64,000 nucleotides of DNA, taken from NCBI RefSeq assembly GCF_016756775.1, contig NZ_JAERMU010000007.1, positions 1-64,000 on the forward strand, written 5' to 3'. How positions within the stretch are numbered: position 1 is the stretch's first letter; every line of letters starts with the position of its first letter. The translations under genes were made by a program, and so were the position numbers. Source of the DNA: Dryocola clanedunensis subsp. sulfonylureivorans (GTDB lineage: Bacteria > Pseudomonadota > Gammaproteobacteria > Enterobacterales > Enterobacteriaceae). Under the pieces are notes generated by a model, which made no database searches, had not been told where the DNA came from, and saw only the letters and a list, made by a program, of their open reading frames with translations. Positions 57,155-63,573 of the stretch are shown one piece after another.

Positions 57155-57898
57155 ATGGCAGTAGCATTAGTCACCGGCGGCAGCCGGGGGATTGGCAGAG
57201 TCACCGCCATCCTGCTGGCAGAAACAGGCTATAAGGTTGTCGTTAATTACCAGCGCAATAAGCAGGCCGCAGACGAGGTGGTGAATACCATTCGCGAGGC
57301 GGGTGGCATTGCGCTGGCTATCAAAGCGGACATTGGCGACGAGCTACAGGTGCTGGCGATGTTTGCCGAAATCGACAATGCCTTTGGGCCCGTCACCGCA
57401 CTGGTCAATAACGCGGGCATTCTCTTCCAGCAGTCCACTATCGAAAACCTGACCGCAGAGCGCATTAATCGCGTATTAGCCACTAACGTCACGGGCTATT
57501 TCCTTTGCTGCCGCGAGGCGGTGAAACGTATGGCTTATCGCCACGGCGGAGAAGGCGGAGCCATAGTTAACGTTTCGTCAGCCGCTTCTCGCCTGGGCGC
57601 ACCAGGTGAATATGTTGATTACGCTGCTTCTAAAGGCGCGGTAGATACGATGACAACGGGGCTTTCGGTAGAGGTTGCGGCGCAGGGGATCCGCGTTAAC
57701 TGCGTTCGTCCGGGGCTTATTTATACCGAAATACATGCTTCTGGCGGTGAGGCGGGGCGCGTAGATCGGTTAAAAGAGAGTTTACCTATGAAGCGTGGCG
57801 GGCAGCCGGAAGAAGTTGCGGAGGCCATCGTCTGGCTGTTAAGCAGCAAGGCGTCCTATGTGACCGGCAGTTTTATTGATGTGGCGGGCGGGAAATAA
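57155..57898 (+). CDS. ygfF: SDR-family NAD(P)-dependent oxidoreductase YgfF
   Basis: 247-aa short-chain dehydrogenase. It has the cofactor motif TGGSRGIGRVTA (about 7-18), NNAG (about 88-91), Ser in NVSSAAS and the catalytic YxxxK in YVDYAASKGA. C-terminal family tail SYVTGSFIDVAGG. Resembles glucose-1-dehydrogenase-like SDRs; the substrate is unknown. It keeps its K-12 position between gcvP and bglA, but here the second accessory block separates it from bglA. Confidence 0.93.
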   Translation: MAVALVTGGSRGIGRVTAILLAETGYKVVVNYQRNKQAADEVVNTIREAGGIALAIKADIGDELQVLAMFAEIDNAFGPVTALVNNAGILFQQSTIENLTAERINRVLATNVTGYFLCCREAVKRMAYRHGGEGGAIVNVSSAASRLGAPGEYVDYAASKGAVDTMTTGLSVEVAAQGIRVNCVRPGLIYTEIHASGGEAGRVDRLKESLPMKRGGQPEEVAEAIVWLLSSKASYVTGSFIDVAGGK

Positions 57899-57955
57899 AA
57901 AAGCAGCCTGGATAATAAGGGTAGGAGACCACGGGGGCATTATCCAGGCTGCGAA
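57893..57955 (-). terminator. Terminator of the cytochrome b561/MsrP-like/MXKDX operon
   Basis: GCAGCCTGGATAAT (57903-57916) pairs perfectly with ATTATCCAGGCTGC (57939-57952) over a 22-base loop. On the minus strand it is followed by TTTTTTATTT. The stem starts just after the MXKDX stop codon and overlaps the end of convergent ygfF. Confidence 0.85.
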
Positions 57956-57959
57956 AGCG

Positions 57960-58265
57960 TTAGTTCTTTTTCATCTCATCTTTAGACATATTATCTTTAG
58001 ACATCGCATCTTTGCTCATGCCGTCTTTAGCCATTGAATCTTTGCCCATGCTGTCTTTCGCCATGGAGTCTTTACCCATGCTGTCTTTGTGCATGCCGTC
58101 TTTCGCCATGGAGTCTTTACCCATGTTGTCTTTGTGCATGCCGTCTTTAGTCATTTCCATCTTGTCTTTCGACATATTATCTTTGCTCATATTATCTGCC
58201 GCATTGGCGCCAGCCATACCTAAAGCCAGAGCGGAGCACATCATCATTGCATATAATTTTTTCAT
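57960..58265 (-). CDS. Secreted methionine-rich MXKDX repeat protein
   Basis: 101-aa precursor. The signal peptide MKKLYAMMMCSALALGMAGANA leaves a mature chain of about 79 residues made of 14 units of M-x-K-D plus a variable fifth residue. It has 16 Met, no Cys and no hydrophobic core, so it is probably disordered. The DNA is a degenerate 15-bp tandem repeat. It is last in the operon with the MsrP-like molybdoenzyme and cytochrome b561. Known relatives carry the pentapeptide MXKDX repeat name. By analogy with the Met-rich peptide MrpX of Azospira, it may act as a sacrificial methionine oxidant sink; metal binding by the Met/Asp residues is an alternative. Confidence 0.85.
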   Translation of the reverse strand: MKKLYAMMMCSALALGMAGANAADNMSKDNMSKDKMEMTKDGMHKDNMGKDSMAKDGMHKDSMGKDSMAKDSMGKDSMAKDGMSKDAMSKDNMSKDEMKKN

Positions 58266-58306
58266 TTTTTCTTCCTTATTTCTTGCGTGAGGGTCGAGTG
58301 AATATA

Positions 58307-59068
58307 TTAACTACCGCCAAACCAGTTATAACCCTGGTCTTCCCAGTAACCGCCGGGGTAGCGATTAGTGACTTCAATAACCTGAATATGCTTCGGGTTC
58401 TTGTAGCCTAATTTTGTTGGCATCCTTAATTTCATCGGGTAGCCGTATTTACGCGGTAAAATTTTCCCGTCGTAAGTTAAAGCGATAATCGTTTGTGGGT
58501 GTAGCGCCGTTGCCATATCAATGCTGGTGTAATATTCATCCGCGCATTTGAAACTGACATATTTCGCATTCAGATCTGCACCGATCCCCTTGAGGAAAAG
58601 AGAAAACGGTACGCCGCCCCATTTGCCAATTGCGCTCCAGCCTTCCACGCAGATATGCCGTGTCACCTGGCTGACCTGAGCCATCTGATACAGCTGCGGC
58701 AGTGTCCAGGGGCGCTTATCCGCCACCAGTCCCGCGATCTCAAGTCGATAGTCATCACCATTGATATCCGGCGCTTCGTCTTCGCTGTAAAAGGCGTTAA
58801 ACGGGAAGGGTCTGGTCATCATCGATTCCGGATAAACCGGCGCCAGGTCGTTGCTGTTAAACAGCCATGCCTGCACGCGGTCGTTAAAACGGGATATCGA
58901 ACCCAATGTTGTTTCGACCTGCTGGTTGTCGCTGATATCGCAGCCGGTGAGCATGACTAACCCACCTAGCGTCAGGCCTTGTTTTAAAAAACGTCGTCGA
59001 CCTTCCGCGGAGAGCTGTTTGGTAATCTGCTGCTGCGCCTCTTTCAGAATCTCTTTTTCATCACTCAT
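58307..59068 (-). CDS. MsrP-like molybdopterin-dependent oxidoreductase (Tat lipoprotein)
   Basis: 253-aa protein of the sulfite-oxidase molybdopterin fold, relative of MsrP (YedY), the periplasmic methionine sulfoxide reductase. A Tat motif GRRRFLK (23-29) precedes a hydrophobic stretch that ends in a lipobox LTGC (40-43), so it is probably exported folded and lipid-anchored. The molybdenum-ligating Cys is in RHICVEGWSAIG (Cys140). The C-terminal KYGYPMKLRMP...GYKNPKHIQVIEVT matches MsrP's cofactor pocket. It is shorter than E. coli MsrP and clearly a separate branch. It lies 10 bases after the cytochrome b561 gene. Confidence 0.88.
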   Translation of the reverse strand: MSDEKEILKEAQQQITKQLSAEGRRRFLKQGLTLGGLVMLTGCDISDNQQVETTLGSISRFNDRVQAWLFNSNDLAPVYPESMMTRPFPFNAFYSEDEAPDINGDDYRLEIAGLVADKRPWTLPQLYQMAQVSQVTRHICVEGWSAIGKWGGVPFSLFLKGIGADLNAKYVSFKCADEYYTSIDMATALHPQTIIALTYDGKILPRKYGYPMKLRMPTKLGYKNPKHIQVIEVTNRYPGGYWEDQGYNWFGGS

Positions 59069-59078
59069 GATCGTTTCC

Positions 59079-59690
59079 TTAACGTCCGCGAATCATGGCA
59101 AGTAAGGTGCGCGGGACTAACGCAACCATCACGATATGAATGACAACAAAGCCGACCATCGCACTCATCGCATAGAAATGGATAAAGCGAGCGGTGTCAT
59201 AGCCACCCAGCAATTCTCGTAGTATCGGAAACTGAACGGATTTCCAGATAACCAGGCCCGAGCAAACTAAGATGACGCTATCAATCATCACAAATAGATA
59301 AGCTGCTTTCTGCACCATGTTGTAATGGCTGAGATCCGCATGGGCTAATTTTCCACGCAGGGCCGCGAGCAAATCTTTAAAGAATTCTTTTGGCGACAGC
59401 GGCCAGTATTTTCGTTTAAAACGCCCGCTGACTAAATTAATCAGTAGATAAATGACGCCGTTAATACCAAACAACCACATGCCGGCAAAGTGCCATTGCA
59501 ACGCGCCGCCTAGCCAGCCACCTAACGTTAACTCATTCATAAAACTGAAGTTAAAAAGTGGTGATGCATTATAAATTCGCCATCCACTGGTGACCATAAT
59601 CAACATAGCCAGCGCATTTAGCCAATGGCACAGTCGCAACCATATGGGATGGACGGCTGTTGGACTGTTGTTAAATATTTTCCTGTCCAT
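59079..59690 (-). CDS. Cytochrome b561 / b6-type membrane subunit
   Basis: 203-aa di-heme membrane protein with four hydrophobic helices. Candidate heme His residues lie in LCHWLNALAM (His22), LQWHFAGMW (His67), ARFIHFYAMS and FVVIHIVMV. It would pass quinol electrons to the periplasmic MsrP-like enzyme, the role MsrQ has for MsrP. The start is ATG 59690, seven bases after AGGGAG; a longer frame has no ribosome-binding site. First gene of the minus-strand operon, divergent from the two-component genes. Confidence 0.87.
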   Translation of the reverse strand: MDRKIFNNSPTAVHPIWLRLCHWLNALAMLIMVTSGWRIYNASPLFNFSFMNELTLGGWLGGALQWHFAGMWLFGINGVIYLLINLVSGRFKRKYWPLSPKEFFKDLLAALRGKLAHADLSHYNMVQKAAYLFVMIDSVILVCSGLVIWKSVQFPILRELLGGYDTARFIHFYAMSAMVGFVVIHIVMVALVPRTLLAMIRGR

Positions 59691-59753
59691 CGCGCTGCTC
59701 CCTGAGAATTCGATGAAATCAGTATTGGCCAAATTTATTCCCCAATGCCTCAC

Positions 59754-59804
59754 GTAAACTTAAATAAAATGTGACAACTTACAGGCGGCAAGTTGTGTAA
59801 ACTT
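59754..59804. promoter_or_regulatory. Candidate response-regulator binding region in the divergent promoter
   Basis: GTAAACTT occurs twice in direct orientation (59754-59761 and 59797-59804), 43 bp apart (about four helical turns). Between them ACAACTT and AAGTTGT form a perfect 7-bp dyad with a 9-bp spacer (59774-59796). OmpR-family regulators bind direct repeats or dyads of this type. Position between the cytochrome b561 gene and the regulator gene supports autoregulation plus control of the operon. Confidence 0.5.
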
Positions 59805-59834
59805 TTACTATGTAGCGCGAGCGGGGGTCAGAAA

Positions 59835-60548
59835 GTGAATCAGGATAAAAAGCTGCTCATTGTGGAAGACGATGAAAACATAGCTGAGCTTTTACAGTTG
59901 CATCTGCGTGAAGAGGGCTTTGAGATTACCCACGCTGCGGACGGGAACATCGGCATGGAAAAACTCAGACAGGGTGGGTGGGATGCCCTGATTCTTGATC
60001 TGATGCTGCCTGGGGTAGACGGCCTGGAGATTTGCCGCTTTGCCAGAACAATGACCCGCTATACGCCAATCATTATGATCAGCGCCCGCTCCAGTGAAAC
60101 GCATCGCGTGCTGGGGCTGGAGCTTGGAGCCGATGACTATCTTGCTAAACCGTTTTCCATGCTTGAGCTGGTGGCTCGGGTTAAGGCTCTGTTTCGCCGT
60201 CAGGAAGCCATGAGCCAGAACCTGCGGCTGGACGCCGGCACGCTCACTTTTGGCACCCTGACCATCGATCCGCTGGCCCGCGATGTACAGCTTAATCATC
60301 AATCTCTCGAGCTGACGCCGAGGGAGTTTGATTTGCTCTACTTCTTTGCCAGGCATCCGGATCAGGTTTTCTCTCGCCTGAACTTGCTCAACCAGGTGTG
60401 GGGTTACGAACACGAAGGGTATGAACACACCGTTAACACGCACATCAACCGCCTGCGTATTAAAATTGAAGAGAATCCGGCGGAACCGAATTTTATCCGA
60501 ACTATCTGGGGTAAAGGTTACAAATTCACCGCTCAGCCACGCGAGTAG
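59835..60548 (+). CDS. OmpR-family response regulator
   Basis: 237-aa regulator. Receiver domain about 6-120, with acidic pair ED at 11-12, phospho-Asp55 in ALILDLMLPG and Lys in DDYLAKPFS. The C-terminal winged helix is about 135-237 (LTPREFDLLYFFARHPDQVFSR, VNTHINRLRIKIE, WGKGYKF). I choose GTG 59835 (MNQDKKLLIVEDDEN); an upstream TTG would add an unrelated leader. It is followed after 3 bases by the sensor kinase. Likely target: the divergent cytochrome b561/MsrP-like/MXKDX operon. Confidence 0.9.
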   Translation: MNQDKKLLIVEDDENIAELLQLHLREEGFEITHAADGNIGMEKLRQGGWDALILDLMLPGVDGLEICRFARTMTRYTPIIMISARSSETHRVLGLELGADDYLAKPFSMLELVARVKALFRRQEAMSQNLRLDAGTLTFGTLTIDPLARDVQLNHQSLELTPREFDLLYFFARHPDQVFSRLNLLNQVWGYEHEGYEHTVNTHINRLRIKIEENPAEPNFIRTIWGKGYKFTAQPRE

Positions 60549-60551
60549 ACC

Positions 60552-62018
60552 ATGCGAATACTTTCTCTTTCCCAGCGCCTGACGCTTGTTTTTGCCCTGC
60601 TGCTTCTTGGATCCTGCGTGCTGTTGGGGTGGATGCAGGTGCGAACCAGTACGCAGTATAGCCAGGCCGTTATCCAACAACTGTCCAGCAATCTTGCGCA
60701 GCACATTAACCAGAGCTATCCGCTGGTGACGAAGGATGGGCTGAATAAAGACTCGGTGCGCACGCTGTTTGACCATCTGATGTCGGTCAACCCAAGCGTT
60801 GAGGTTTATCTGCTTGATAAAAGTGGCAATATCATTGGAGATGCTGCGCCAGAAGGGCATCTCAAACGCCAGCATGTTGATTTAGCCCCCATAGAAGCCT
60901 CGCTCGCCCAACACAAGTTCCCAATATATGGCGACGATCCGCGCAGCCTTGAAACACGGAAAGTTTTTAGCGTAGCCCCGATGTTGCAGGACGGGCAGCT
61001 GAAAGGCTATCTGTATGTGATTCTGCTCGGTGAGAATTACAGCGCGCTTATCAGTAATGCCCGCATCAATACCTTGCTAAAAATTGTGCTGATTTCTATC
61101 AGCCTGGTTGCTCTGCTGGGGCTGATTGTGGGTGGCCTGGCCTTCCGGTGGATCACTCGTCCGCTACGCGATCTTTCCCGGCAGGTGCACGCGCTGGAAA
61201 TGGGCGGCATGAAGGAGATGCAGGCGATGGCGGCCCTCCCGCTGCGAGAAGGGAAGGAACGTGACGAGATCGATCTGCTGCGTCAGGGCGTGATCAGTAT
61301 GGCCCGCCGCATAGCAGAACAGTGGCACCGGCTGTCTCAGCAGGATCAGCTCCGCCGGGAGTTTATCGCCAATATCTCCCACGATCTGCGTACGCCGCTG
61401 ACTTCGCTGCATGGCTACCTGGAAAGCCTCTCGGTTATGTCCGCGACCCTTTCTGAGAAGGATAAAAAGCGCTATCTGGAAATCGCCCTTGCTCAGAGTC
61501 AGAAAGTAGGGACGCTTGCCCAGTCGCTGTTTGAGCTGGCGCGTCTGGAATATGGCGTGGTGAAACCGCAAAAAGAGCGATTCTCGCTGTGCGAGCTTTT
61601 GCAGGATGTGTTTCAGAAATTTGAACTGGCTGCGCAAACTCGCCAGCAGCAGCTCTTAGCCGATATCCAGCCGGGATTGCCGCTGATAGACGCCGATCTG
61701 GGAATGATAGAGCGAGTTCTTACTAACCTGCTTGATAATGCCATCCGTCATGCGCCAGAGCGGGGAACCGTCTCTGTGCGGCTATGGAAAGAGAGGGATA
61801 AAGTGATGGTACAGGTGAGTGATAACGGGCCCGGCGTGCCGCAGGAGCTGAAAGAAGGGTTATTCGTCCGGCCTTCGATTGCCAGCCAGTCACGGCTGCG
61901 CGTCGGCGGGTTAGGGTTAATGATCGTTCGGCAAATGCTGCAACTTCACGGCACGGATATCACGCTGATTGAGAAAACAGAAACCGGCGCCTGCTTCCGC
62001 TTTGCTTTGACGGTTTGA
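60552..62018 (+). CDS. Sensor histidine kinase
   Basis: 488-aa membrane kinase. TM1 about 8-29, periplasmic sensor about 30-172, TM2 about 175-197, HAMP about 198-250, HisKA with phospho-acceptor His277 in IANISHDLRTPL, and HATPase_c with N-box LLDNAIRHAPE, VSDNGPGVP and VGGLGLMIV. The periplasmic loop contains no Cys, so any sensing of oxidants there would not use thiols. It is paired with the upstream regulator; the signal is unknown but probably periplasmic stress matching the divergent operon. Confidence 0.9.
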   Translation: MRILSLSQRLTLVFALLLLGSCVLLGWMQVRTSTQYSQAVIQQLSSNLAQHINQSYPLVTKDGLNKDSVRTLFDHLMSVNPSVEVYLLDKSGNIIGDAAPEGHLKRQHVDLAPIEASLAQHKFPIYGDDPRSLETRKVFSVAPMLQDGQLKGYLYVILLGENYSALISNARINTLLKIVLISISLVALLGLIVGGLAFRWITRPLRDLSRQVHALEMGGMKEMQAMAALPLREGKERDEIDLLRQGVISMARRIAEQWHRLSQQDQLRREFIANISHDLRTPLTSLHGYLESLSVMSATLSEKDKKRYLEIALAQSQKVGTLAQSLFELARLEYGVVKPQKERFSLCELLQDVFQKFELAAQTRQQQLLADIQPGLPLIDADLGMIERVLTNLLDNAIRHAPERGTVSVRLWKERDKVMVQVSDNGPGVPQELKEGLFVRPSIASQSRLRVGGLGLMIVRQMLQLHGTDITLIEKTETGACFRFALTV

Positions 62019-62084: not shown

Positions 62085-63476
62085 TTAGTTTGGCGAGTAG
62101 GGCGTGTACACCCCGTTCAGGCTATTTAAAAACGCCACGATATCATCCACATCCTGCTGCGGCAGCGATGTGCCAACCTGATATTTCAGCATCTCTTTTA
62201 CCGCCTCATCCAGCGTTTTAACGTCTCCACGATGGAACCAGGGACCCGTCAGCGCCACGTTGCGCAGCGTGGGCACCTTCTGACGCAGACGGTCCCGTAC
62301 CTCTTTGGTGACGTTCATGCGGCCGATGTCAGCAGCGGTTATCTCCCCAAACCCAAAGTCTTTTTTCAATCCTAACGGCTCGAACGAGCGGCCTCCCAGA
62401 ATCTTGCCGCCGTGGCAGGTGGCGCATTTATTCTCCTTGAACAGCTGATATCCGTGCTTTTGTTGCGCAGACAGCGCGCTATCGTCGCCGCGCAAATAGT
62501 TATCAAATGGCGAGTTCGGCGTGATAAGCGTTTTTTCAAACTCGGCAATAGCATCGGTAATGGAAGCGCCTGAGAAACCCTGCGGATAAACGGCGGTGAA
62601 GTCGCGGGTCAGAATCGGATCCTGCTTCAGTTTATCCGTGATTTCATCCCAGGAGGTCGAGGCCATCTCTATCGGGTTGAGCGGCGGGCCACCTGCCTGG
62701 GCCTGGAGATCGGCGGCACGCCCGTCCCAGAACTGTTCGATATTAAAGGTTGCGTTATAGACGGTTGGGGCATTGATTGGGCCAATCGCTCCCCCTACGC
62801 CCCGTGAGGTTTTGCGACCATCCACGCCGCCAGCACCGAGCTGATGACAGTGGGCGCAGGAGATTGAGTTATCTCCGGAAAGGCGCGGATCGTGGTAAAG
62901 CCTCATACCTAACGCGACCTTTTCCCCATCAACCGGTAATGACTGCGGAATGGGTTGAACAGGCTCGTTACGACGACTTTCAGCCATATCCGCAGAGGCA
63001 TAATGCGCAAGGCGCTGCGTTTTAATCCACTCCAGCACCGCGCCACGCTCCTGCTCGCTCATATGACCCGCCCAGTGCAGCGCGGTGTAGCGGGTTGGCG
63101 GCATGGTCTGGTGCTGCATGACCCACTCAATTTTGTTGAGATCGCTTTGCGGTGCGGCGTTGTTATCGAGCAGGCTTTTGCGAACGTCCGTCAGATTGAA
63201 GGATTTATAGCCATGCTGGATATCGTACTCCATGAGTTGTTTAGCCACGGGAAAGCTGGCGTAGAAGGGCAGCTTTGCCGAGGGAGTGTGGCAGTAGTCG
63301 CAGCCTTTTTCGTTGAGGATGCCAAGTACGCTGGCATTGAGAGGCGAGAGATTTTTCGCCGTTGTGGGCAGGGTGTTGCGCTCCGTATCGTGGTAATGCA
63401 CATACCCGACCAGACCAAAATAGCCGACGATACCGACACAGGCGGCAGCGGCGAACAACTTCGTTGTCGTTCTCAT
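62085..63476 (-). CDS. yhjA: Tri-heme cytochrome c peroxidase (YhjA/Ccp-type)
   Basis: 463-aa membrane-anchored, periplasm-facing peroxidase that reduces H2O2 with respiratory electrons. The N-terminal anchor (about 7-27) is followed by an extra c-heme CDYCH (59-63), then the two classical peroxidase hemes CAHCH and CATCH. Conserved GVGGAIGPINAPTVYNATFN and QFWDGRA. Start at ATG 63476, with AAAGGA eight bases upstream. In K-12 the orthologue sits elsewhere on the chromosome and allows H2O2 to act as an anaerobic electron acceptor. Here it joins other periplasmic redox genes. Confidence 0.93.
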   Translation of the reverse strand: MRTTTKLFAAAACVGIVGYFGLVGYVHYHDTERNTLPTTAKNLSPLNASVLGILNEKGCDYCHTPSAKLPFYASFPVAKQLMEYDIQHGYKSFNLTDVRKSLLDNNAAPQSDLNKIEWVMQHQTMPPTRYTALHWAGHMSEQERGAVLEWIKTQRLAHYASADMAESRRNEPVQPIPQSLPVDGEKVALGMRLYHDPRLSGDNSISCAHCHQLGAGGVDGRKTSRGVGGAIGPINAPTVYNATFNIEQFWDGRAADLQAQAGGPPLNPIEMASTSWDEITDKLKQDPILTRDFTAVYPQGFSGASITDAIAEFEKTLITPNSPFDNYLRGDDSALSAQQKHGYQLFKENKCATCHGGKILGGRSFEPLGLKKDFGFGEITAADIGRMNVTKEVRDRLRQKVPTLRNVALTGPWFHRGDVKTLDEAVKEMLKYQVGTSLPQQDVDDIVAFLNSLNGVYTPYSPN

Positions 63477-63573
63477 TTCGTCATCCTTTCCAGAGATATA
63501 AAACGAATCAGGGCGATCCGTAAGCCACAGCATTTTTGTGGTCTTATCATCGGTAATGACGAGGAAGAAAATG

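Follow-up and report, generated by a model that had tools for sequence, protein, structure and literature searches.

The stretch of DNA analysed here (in the following the window) comprises 64,000 nucleotides from Dryocola clanedunensis subsp. sulfonylureivorans (contig NZ_JAERMU010000007.1, positions 1 to 64,000) and harbours a cluster of five genes, in which an operon encoding a cytochrome b561, a molybdenum (Mo) enzyme and a secreted, methionine-rich protein with MXKDX repeats lies divergent from the genes of an OmpR-type response regulator and a histidine kinase. As judged from gene order and sequence identity, this cluster is the ortholog of OrhKR and C3566-C3568 of uropathogenic Escherichia coli (UPEC), i.e. 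a new environmental relative of a published system. We consider it probable that the OrhKR-type pair controls an MXKDX sink, a Mo-dependent methionine sulfoxide (Met-SO) reductase and a cytochrome b561 as one unit. The five genes have orthologs in other genera, the operator between the two transcription units is conserved, the genes for the Mo enzyme and the MXKDX protein are tightly linked, and the same regulator stands at genes of known Met-SO reductase families. The occurrence of the same regulator and operator at MsrPQ and MsrBA is the strongest computational evidence that the Mo enzyme is likely a Met-SO reductase. Somewhat less firmly, we lean towards the wider view that OrhKR belongs to a widespread regulator family controlling periplasmic methionine oxidation, in which one operator would govern four unlike answers, namely the Mo enzyme with cytochrome b561 and MXKDX protein, the sink alone, MsrPQ, and an exported MsrB(-DipZ)-MsrA, and in which the kinase may read its residue Met77.

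Comparison with known systems

All genes of the cluster were found where a first-pass annotation, made from the sequence alone, had placed them, and a strong hairpin at 57903-57952 ends the operon, giving it the terminator of its own that had been proposed. The features are as follows.

57903..57952, minus strand: intrinsic terminator hairpin of the operon, then a T run (folding energy -27.5 kcal/mol, z -6.73; equalled by none of 200 shuffles)
57960..58265, minus strand: secreted methionine-rich MXKDX-repeat protein, counterpart of c3568 (TIGR02953, 72.6 bits; 42% identity to E. coli)
58307..59068, minus strand: exported, perhaps lipid-anchored molybdoenzyme of the sulfite-oxidase fold with a predicted twin-arginine translocation (Tat) signal, counterpart of c3567 (PF00174; 65% identity to E. 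coli)
59079..59690, minus strand: prokaryotic cytochrome b561, counterpart of c3566 (PF01292, 87.7 bits; 59% identity to E. coli)
59750..59780, plus strand: predicted operator TCACGTAAACTTAAATAAAATGTGACAACTT in the divergent promoter region (near matches in 48 other loci)
59835..60548, plus strand: OmpR/PhoB-type response regulator with GTG start, OrhR ortholog (PF00072 and PF00486; 64% identity to E. coli)
60552..62018, plus strand: OrhK ortholog, a histidine kinase whose sensor is predicted to be periplasmic (HisKA, HATPase_c; 47% identity to E. coli)

In UPEC, the same five genes occur in the same order as orhK/orhR (C3564/C3565) and c3566-c3568 (PMC8550376). According to that study, the c3566 promoter is bound by the regulator, tert-butyl hydroperoxide and macrophage passage induce the operon via the pair, and mutation of c3566 or c3567 renders the cells sensitive to tert-butyl hydroperoxide (PMC8550376). 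The same source calls the enzymes a putative Msr system (27.6% identity to MsrP, 23.1% to MsrQ) and proposes an inverted repeat TCACA-N15-TGTGA in the promoter (PMC8550376). The identities given above refer to the E. coli copy in NZ_CP031215.1, which lies beside hlyC, and the window system was equated with c3564-c3568 via gene order and the description in that paper, not via locus tag. The likeness covers the five counterpart genes, their order and divergence, the operator at the published repeat and the small methionine-rich protein. However, the window has no toxin operon beside the cluster, has its own strong terminator and uses the ygfF-bglA site instead of a pathogenicity island; furthermore, its MXKDX protein is far more regular, with 14 units compared to 4 matches by a looser rule in the E. 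coli peptide.

Several other systems resemble the cluster in part. In Azospira suillum, the methionine-rich MXKDX-type protein MrpX reportedly serves oxidant defence together with the MsrP-like enzyme YedY. BcrXQP of Brucella likewise combines a methionine-rich MXKDX-type protein, an MsrP-like enzyme and a membrane partner in oxidant defence, but is described as controlled by an extracytoplasmic function (ECF) sigma factor and anti-sigma factor and as having an MsrQ-like partner (PMC8315932), whereas in the window a two-component pair and a cytochrome of family PF01292 are present. The adjoining ECF sigma and anti-sigma genes that mark the MrpX/BcrX type are not found at the window operon, whose neighbours are the response regulator and the kinase. 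MsrPQ of E. coli is under the control of the two-component system HprRS. The window shares with this system the sulfite-oxidase fold, the CVExW cysteine motif, a haem-containing membrane partner and two-component control (PMC13367049), but misses the MsrP cut-off, has a cytochrome of another family and a lipobox-like motif in the signal, and its regulator is not HprR (153.4 bits with a family cut-off of 353). Periplasmic MsrA/MsrB systems also repair periplasmic Met-SO and, in Pseudomonas, stand beside the same regulator family and operator, but they consist of thiol enzymes, partly with a DipZ-like protein, and involve neither molybdenum nor a sink protein.

Proteins of the cluster

The MXKDX protein has 101 amino acids, 79 of which belong to the mature part beginning with ADN (cleavage site set by eye). 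This part contains exactly the 14 M-x-K-D units and 16 methionines that had been counted before, compared with a mean of 0.65 and a maximum of 5 units in 20,000 shuffles, and the protein exceeds the cut-off of the MXKDX pentapeptide family TIGR02953 (72.6 vs 41 bits).

For the Mo enzyme, PF00174 is the sole Pfam family (101 bits), and the previously noticed Cys140 is present in the motif RHICVEGW. Downstream of the twin arginine lies LTGC43, which we take to be lipobox-like; among 90 aligned sequences, R24, G42, C43 and C140 are invariant and R25 occurs in 99%. This conservation of the twin arginine and LTGC43 suggests a Tat-exported enzyme, perhaps a membrane-anchored lipoprotein. The structure model is moderate (predicted local distance difference test, pLDDT, 74; predicted template modelling score, pTM, 0.69), therefore only the overall fold was used. 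By sequence and by fold, the best solved match is 1xdq, presumably E. coli YedY, i.e. MsrP, with sulfite dehydrogenases close behind. The initial label MsrP-like is appropriate for the fold and the cysteine motif, but not for family membership, which was rejected since the enzyme reaches 83.3 bits in NF003767 (cut-off 207), whereas the true MsrP of the same genome scores 505. Membership of the cytochrome in MsrQ was rejected as well, because it shows PF01292 and a sub-cut-off DUF4405 but no PF01794, which a true MsrQ does show; its residues His22, 67, 117, 171 and 185 are present in 91 of 91 aligned sequences. The window genome also encodes a true MsrPQ (L001).

The regulator shares 64% identity with its E. 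coli counterpart, compared to no more than 40% with any of its further matches in the window genome. HisKA and HATPase_c of the kinase pass the Pfam cut-offs, while HAMP stays below; in comparisons with its structure model (pTM 0.46), kinase domains dominated the matches, and nothing usable on the sensor emerged. Met77 of the sensor is conserved in 97 of 97 aligned sequences and is the sole invariant methionine or cysteine in the sensor of the window kinase. A review describes HprSR as acting when its kinase undergoes methionine oxidation (PMC13367049). Given this precedent and its invariance, we regard Met77 as a candidate sensing residue. At two loci, L113 (G119) and L019, the regulator is present and no kinase was found adjoining.

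Linkage across genomes

The gene neighbourhoods were surveyed in 295 genomes of the GTDB family, in which Mo enzymes with at least 66% identity to the window enzyme were treated as type A (our own split), and an MXKDX gene was counted as adjoining within 2 kb and a regulator gene within 3 kb. Type A was found in 40 genomes; MXKDX adjoins it in all 40 (39 above the TIGR02953 cut-off, G257 below) and the regulator in 36. Hence, the linkage of MXKDX, Mo enzyme and regulator is not accidental. Conversely, 45 genomes match TIGR02953, with the match beside Mo type A in 40 and beside a regulator without Mo gene in 3. The proposal that a methionine-rich protein is paired with a Met-SO reductase under two-component control is thus borne out in architecture and linkage, while the reductase itself stays putative. 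Freely varying neighbours, named in the first-pass annotation as a sign of accidental linkage, are partly seen for the regulator, which does not adjoin the operon in 33 of 69 genomes.

A second sample consisted of the best 80 of 548 loci kept by the search. An MXKDX gene was recognised in 77 of them; the stretch of L035 ends soon past the Mo gene, and L040 and L076 contain no MXKDX by our rule. Serratia, Rahnella, Buttiauxella, Cedecea, Citrobacter gillenii, Achromobacter and E. coli have similar copies of all five genes, arranged in the same order. The regulator adjoins the operon in 36 of the 80 loci.

Mo enzymes of type B (57-62% identical) were found in 30 places, none of which has MXKDX within 3 kb, and in the five type-B loci viewed the adjoining regulator is merely 35-37% identical to that of the window. 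These loci (L093, L095, L097, L099 and L100) hold a module of type-B Mo enzyme and cytochrome b561 beside another two-component pair; L093, L095 and L100, where MXKDX is absent, additionally encode a protein of about 210 amino acids whose N-terminus is signal-like, the copy of L093 being without Pfam match. On plasmids, cytochrome, Mo enzyme and MXKDX genes were seen beside an IS3 transposase with MXKDX on the opposite strand (L161, 6.4-kb plasmid p7_KVTMDU of Klebsiella variicola) and flanked by IS6 transposases (L162, Yersinia ruckeri); neither stretch has an annotated regulator in its gene table, which is incomplete for these plasmids.

The operator in the divergent promoter

The sequence TCACGCAAAGTTAAATWAAATGTGATAACTC or a near match (0-9 mismatches) occurs between regulator and cytochrome genes in 49 loci including the window, in 19 distinct sequences from Enterobacterales and Achromobacter, with L072 as the weakest match. 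In the window, TCACG-N15-TGTGA at 59750-59774 is one base off the inverted repeat proposed for UPEC, and the window genome has a single operator copy within 3 mismatches. We predict from these matches that the operator is the binding site of the regulator. The 49 loci, from which the operator score was trained, are not all independent (L007 and L091 are apparently one contig). The 99th percentile of the score null was 38 bits; this null was taken from the same loci and contains true sites, so that its upper tail is no clean null. Reversed-pattern controls gave 0 matches in 9 genomes and 0 in 51 genomes.

The two halves of the operator behave differently where the operon is missing beside the regulator. 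At the 33 operon-less regulator loci, the regulator-side GTGA is retained in 33 of 33, whereas the operon-side TCAC is retained in 9 of 10 with a divergent methionine-rich or msrPQ gene and in 1 of 23 without (Fisher p 2.5e-6). Counted by genus, the ratio is 6/7 with such a gene versus 1/12 without (p 0.0017). At one of the loci, L107 in G023, the operon is gone and the full operator intact; the divergent genes resemble a fimbrial operon, which may now answer to the OrhR-type regulator.

Operon and regulator apart in Pseudomonas

Among the 44 loci without adjoining regulator, an operator was called upstream of the cytochrome gene at a score of at least 29 in 41, i.e. in 40 of 41 Pseudomonas loci and in L018. 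Since the operator is kept where no regulator adjoins, the regulator was sought elsewhere in the genome. Of 18 such genomes tried, 17 encode an ortholog of 67-72% identity, while Achromobacter pulmonis (L062) has neither regulator ortholog nor operator; in the family survey, G011 and G257 also have the operon with no regulator match and no operator. A dedicated local regulator in Pseudomonas was considered, and no shared one was recognised beside the operon; the question is answered by the regulator encoded elsewhere. A small CheY-like open reading frame lies near the operon in 16 loci.

In all 16 Pseudomonas genomes tried, the regulator gene stands divergent from MsrB, and in the 8 longer loci MsrA follows downstream in 8, with a DipZ-like gene in between in 4. 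The operator pattern matches exactly two sites, one per promoter, in 12 of 15 genomes and one site in 3, and the sixteenth genome, G311, has no operator within 3 mismatches. As part of the wider view of the regulator family, we predict that the Pseudomonas regulator runs a two-promoter regulon. No paper on a link of this regulator to msrBA stood out in the open-access literature among the matches listed.

Other partners of the regulator

The regulator is present in 69 family genomes and adjoins the full operon in 36, a lone methionine-rich gene in 9, an extra msrPQ copy in 1 and none of these in 23; of the 33 off-operon regulators, 10 are thus divergent from another methionine-rich or Met-SO reductase gene. 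The lone methionine-rich partners, from 9 genomes and 6 genera, are small proteins with a signal-like start, divergent from the regulator. Export of these proteins and of most MsrB/MsrA was read from the N-termini by eye; in the single MsrB examined, a Tat signal was found by Pfam. All nine genomes also encode MsrP (overall 176 of 295), and in one of them, G004 (L105), msrB-dipZ-msrA additionally stands on the far side of the kinase gene. The extra msrPQ copy, in G252 (L131), is divergent from an OrhKR-type pair with intact operator, and a second msrP lies elsewhere in that genome.

An outside test used 369 genomes of the class, with regulator matches at E 1e-85 or better, of which 4 besides the window's own genome carry such a match. 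Two of these regulators are 66-69% identical and belong to genomes of another family that had no part in forming the idea; both are divergent from MsrB, followed by DipZ-like and MsrA genes. Operator scores are lower at these two loci (19.4 and 4.1), with TCAC and GTGA both there.

In the regulator tree, all OrhR-type regulators fall into a single firm group, separate from the type-B outgroup (3 rows). Overall, 15 partner changes are needed; for the full operon there are 9 changes, of which at least 4 lie on firm branches. L085, a contig labelled Chryseobacterium, clusters with enterobacterial loci in this tree and is probably a contamination.

Proposed mechanism and its limits

Taken together as a working model, the OrhKR-type kinase would sense oxidant damage in the periplasm, and the regulator would bind the 31-bp operator and switch on the three operon proteins. 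The many methionines of the secreted MXKDX protein may take up oxidant and become Met-SO, which the Mo enzyme would reduce in the MXKDX protein and probably also in envelope proteins. Cytochrome b561 is assumed to pass electrons from the quinol pool to the Mo enzyme, in which case the sink would be recharged by respiration. The reductase activity, the electron route, the role of MXKDX as sink and substrate, and the signal are all points that we infer.

Several observations weigh against this model. No activity data for the Mo enzyme were found in the literature, and the peroxide tests in section 10 of the UPEC report name no c3568 mutant (PMC8550376). The half-operator pattern, tested on the tree, yields only 4 independent firm-branch pairs (mean 2.9 for, 0 opposed, p 0.25), and of 8 Pseudomonas msrB loci, 2 deviate from TCAC on the operon side. 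A strict genome-wide operator pattern matches 3 of the 8 scanned genomes with a lone methionine-rich or msrPQ partner (G027, G086, G236), is absent in the other five (G004, G067, G126, G228, G252), and is also present in G023, G075 and G287, which have no such divergent gene. The Pseudomonas locus L040 has the regulator, but its operon is without operator or MXKDX. Moreover, 23 of the 69 regulator loci lack a divergent methionine-rich or Met-SO reductase gene; G137 and G158 carry the operon elsewhere, and the other 21 genomes have no type-A Mo gene, thus the regulator may do something else there. Finally, the two more distant regulators of the outside test (57-60% identical; L165, L166) stand beside two other secreted proteins and have no full operator, so that the rule seems to end there. 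The secreted neighbours are putatively spondin-like, and these distant OrhR relatives perhaps form a separate regulator branch.

Alternative explanations

The most serious competitor, which we nonetheless regard as unlikely, is metal defence, in which the methionine-rich protein would bind Cu(I)/Ag(I), the pair would be a CusRS-like sensor, and the repair of copper-damaged proteins would be a secondary task of the Mo enzyme. Among periplasmic chaperones, CusF and SilF, for instance, are described as handling copper and silver, and the kinase and regulator do reach 139.7 and 165.4 bits to a heavy-metal kinase family and its partner family. However, both curated cut-offs (292.55 and 279.2) are missed, no metal transporter was noticed by eye in the neighbourhoods viewed, where no search for one was made, and the divergent partners that can be named are Met-SO reductases.

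We give slightly less credit still to the idea that the Mo enzyme acts on another substrate, such as a small S- or N-oxide or sulfite, and that MXKDX is only a carrier or maturation helper. Weak matches to the SoxC and SorA sulfite dehydrogenase profiles and the missed MsrP cut-off (83 of 207 bits) fit this idea, but CVEGW resembles the CVEAW of the MsrP from the same genome, 1xdq is the best solved match by sequence and fold even if sulfite dehydrogenases come close behind, and both the constant pairing with a methionine polymer and the same operator at MsrBA and MsrPQ speak for Met-SO.

The initial claim of an independently assembled version within this lineage, for which the absence from some relatives and the location of the genes on plasmids and, in E. 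coli, beside hemolysin genes might be quoted, is refuted for practical purposes by the orthology of five genes in the same order across E. coli and other genera with a shared operator, and by two congeners that keep regulator and kinase on site, where deletion best explains the loss of the operon.

Returning to the OrhKR-type pair as controller of a sink and its reductase, the cluster type itself is known; new are the Mo-MXKDX linkage, the conservation of the operator, the predicted split regulon of Pseudomonas and the other partners of the regulator. On this comparative evidence, the regulator looks like a general controller of periplasmic Met-SO repair, a pattern that did not come up among the open-access papers listed. 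OrhKR was published as a virulence switch of uropathogens, and its relative in the window suggests that the toxin link is a local add-on and not the core. A testable rule would be that, in Enterobacterales, Pseudomonas and Achromobacter, periplasmic methionine repair is marked by one regulator family and operator, from which functions can be predicted for uncharacterised Mo enzymes, lone methionine-rich proteins and orphan regulators. The loci also offer a natural series of swapped effector modules under a single control.

Genomic site and neighbouring genes

The cluster had been described as inserted between ygfF and bglA. This is right for the ygfF side, but on the other side a further gene lies between the kinase and bglA, so that the direct neighbours are ygfF and the following feature, with bglA beyond.

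62085..63530, minus strand: cytochrome c peroxidase with an extra haem-binding domain, a neighbour of the cluster (PF03150, PF14376)

The word inserted is itself doubtful, because the ygfF-bglA site is also occupied in a congener (L086), a g20 genome (L089) and a g71 genome (L090). The congeners G188 and G265 lack the operon while retaining regulator and kinase at the same site. Homology resumes there within the operator, a few bases past the ygfF stop codon, the regulator-side GTGACAACT being retained and the operon-side TCAC gone; the sequence comparison is best read as a deletion of the operon. The terminator of the window operon sits between the operon and ygfF and is thus possibly bidirectional.

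The peroxidase matches 9qdt (E 1e-218) and no match in the congeners G065, G188 and G265 at E 1e-60. Its gene adjoins the system in 2 of the 80 loci (L008 and L011, both Buttiauxella), and, beside the kinase, it is possibly a peroxide-defence add-on.

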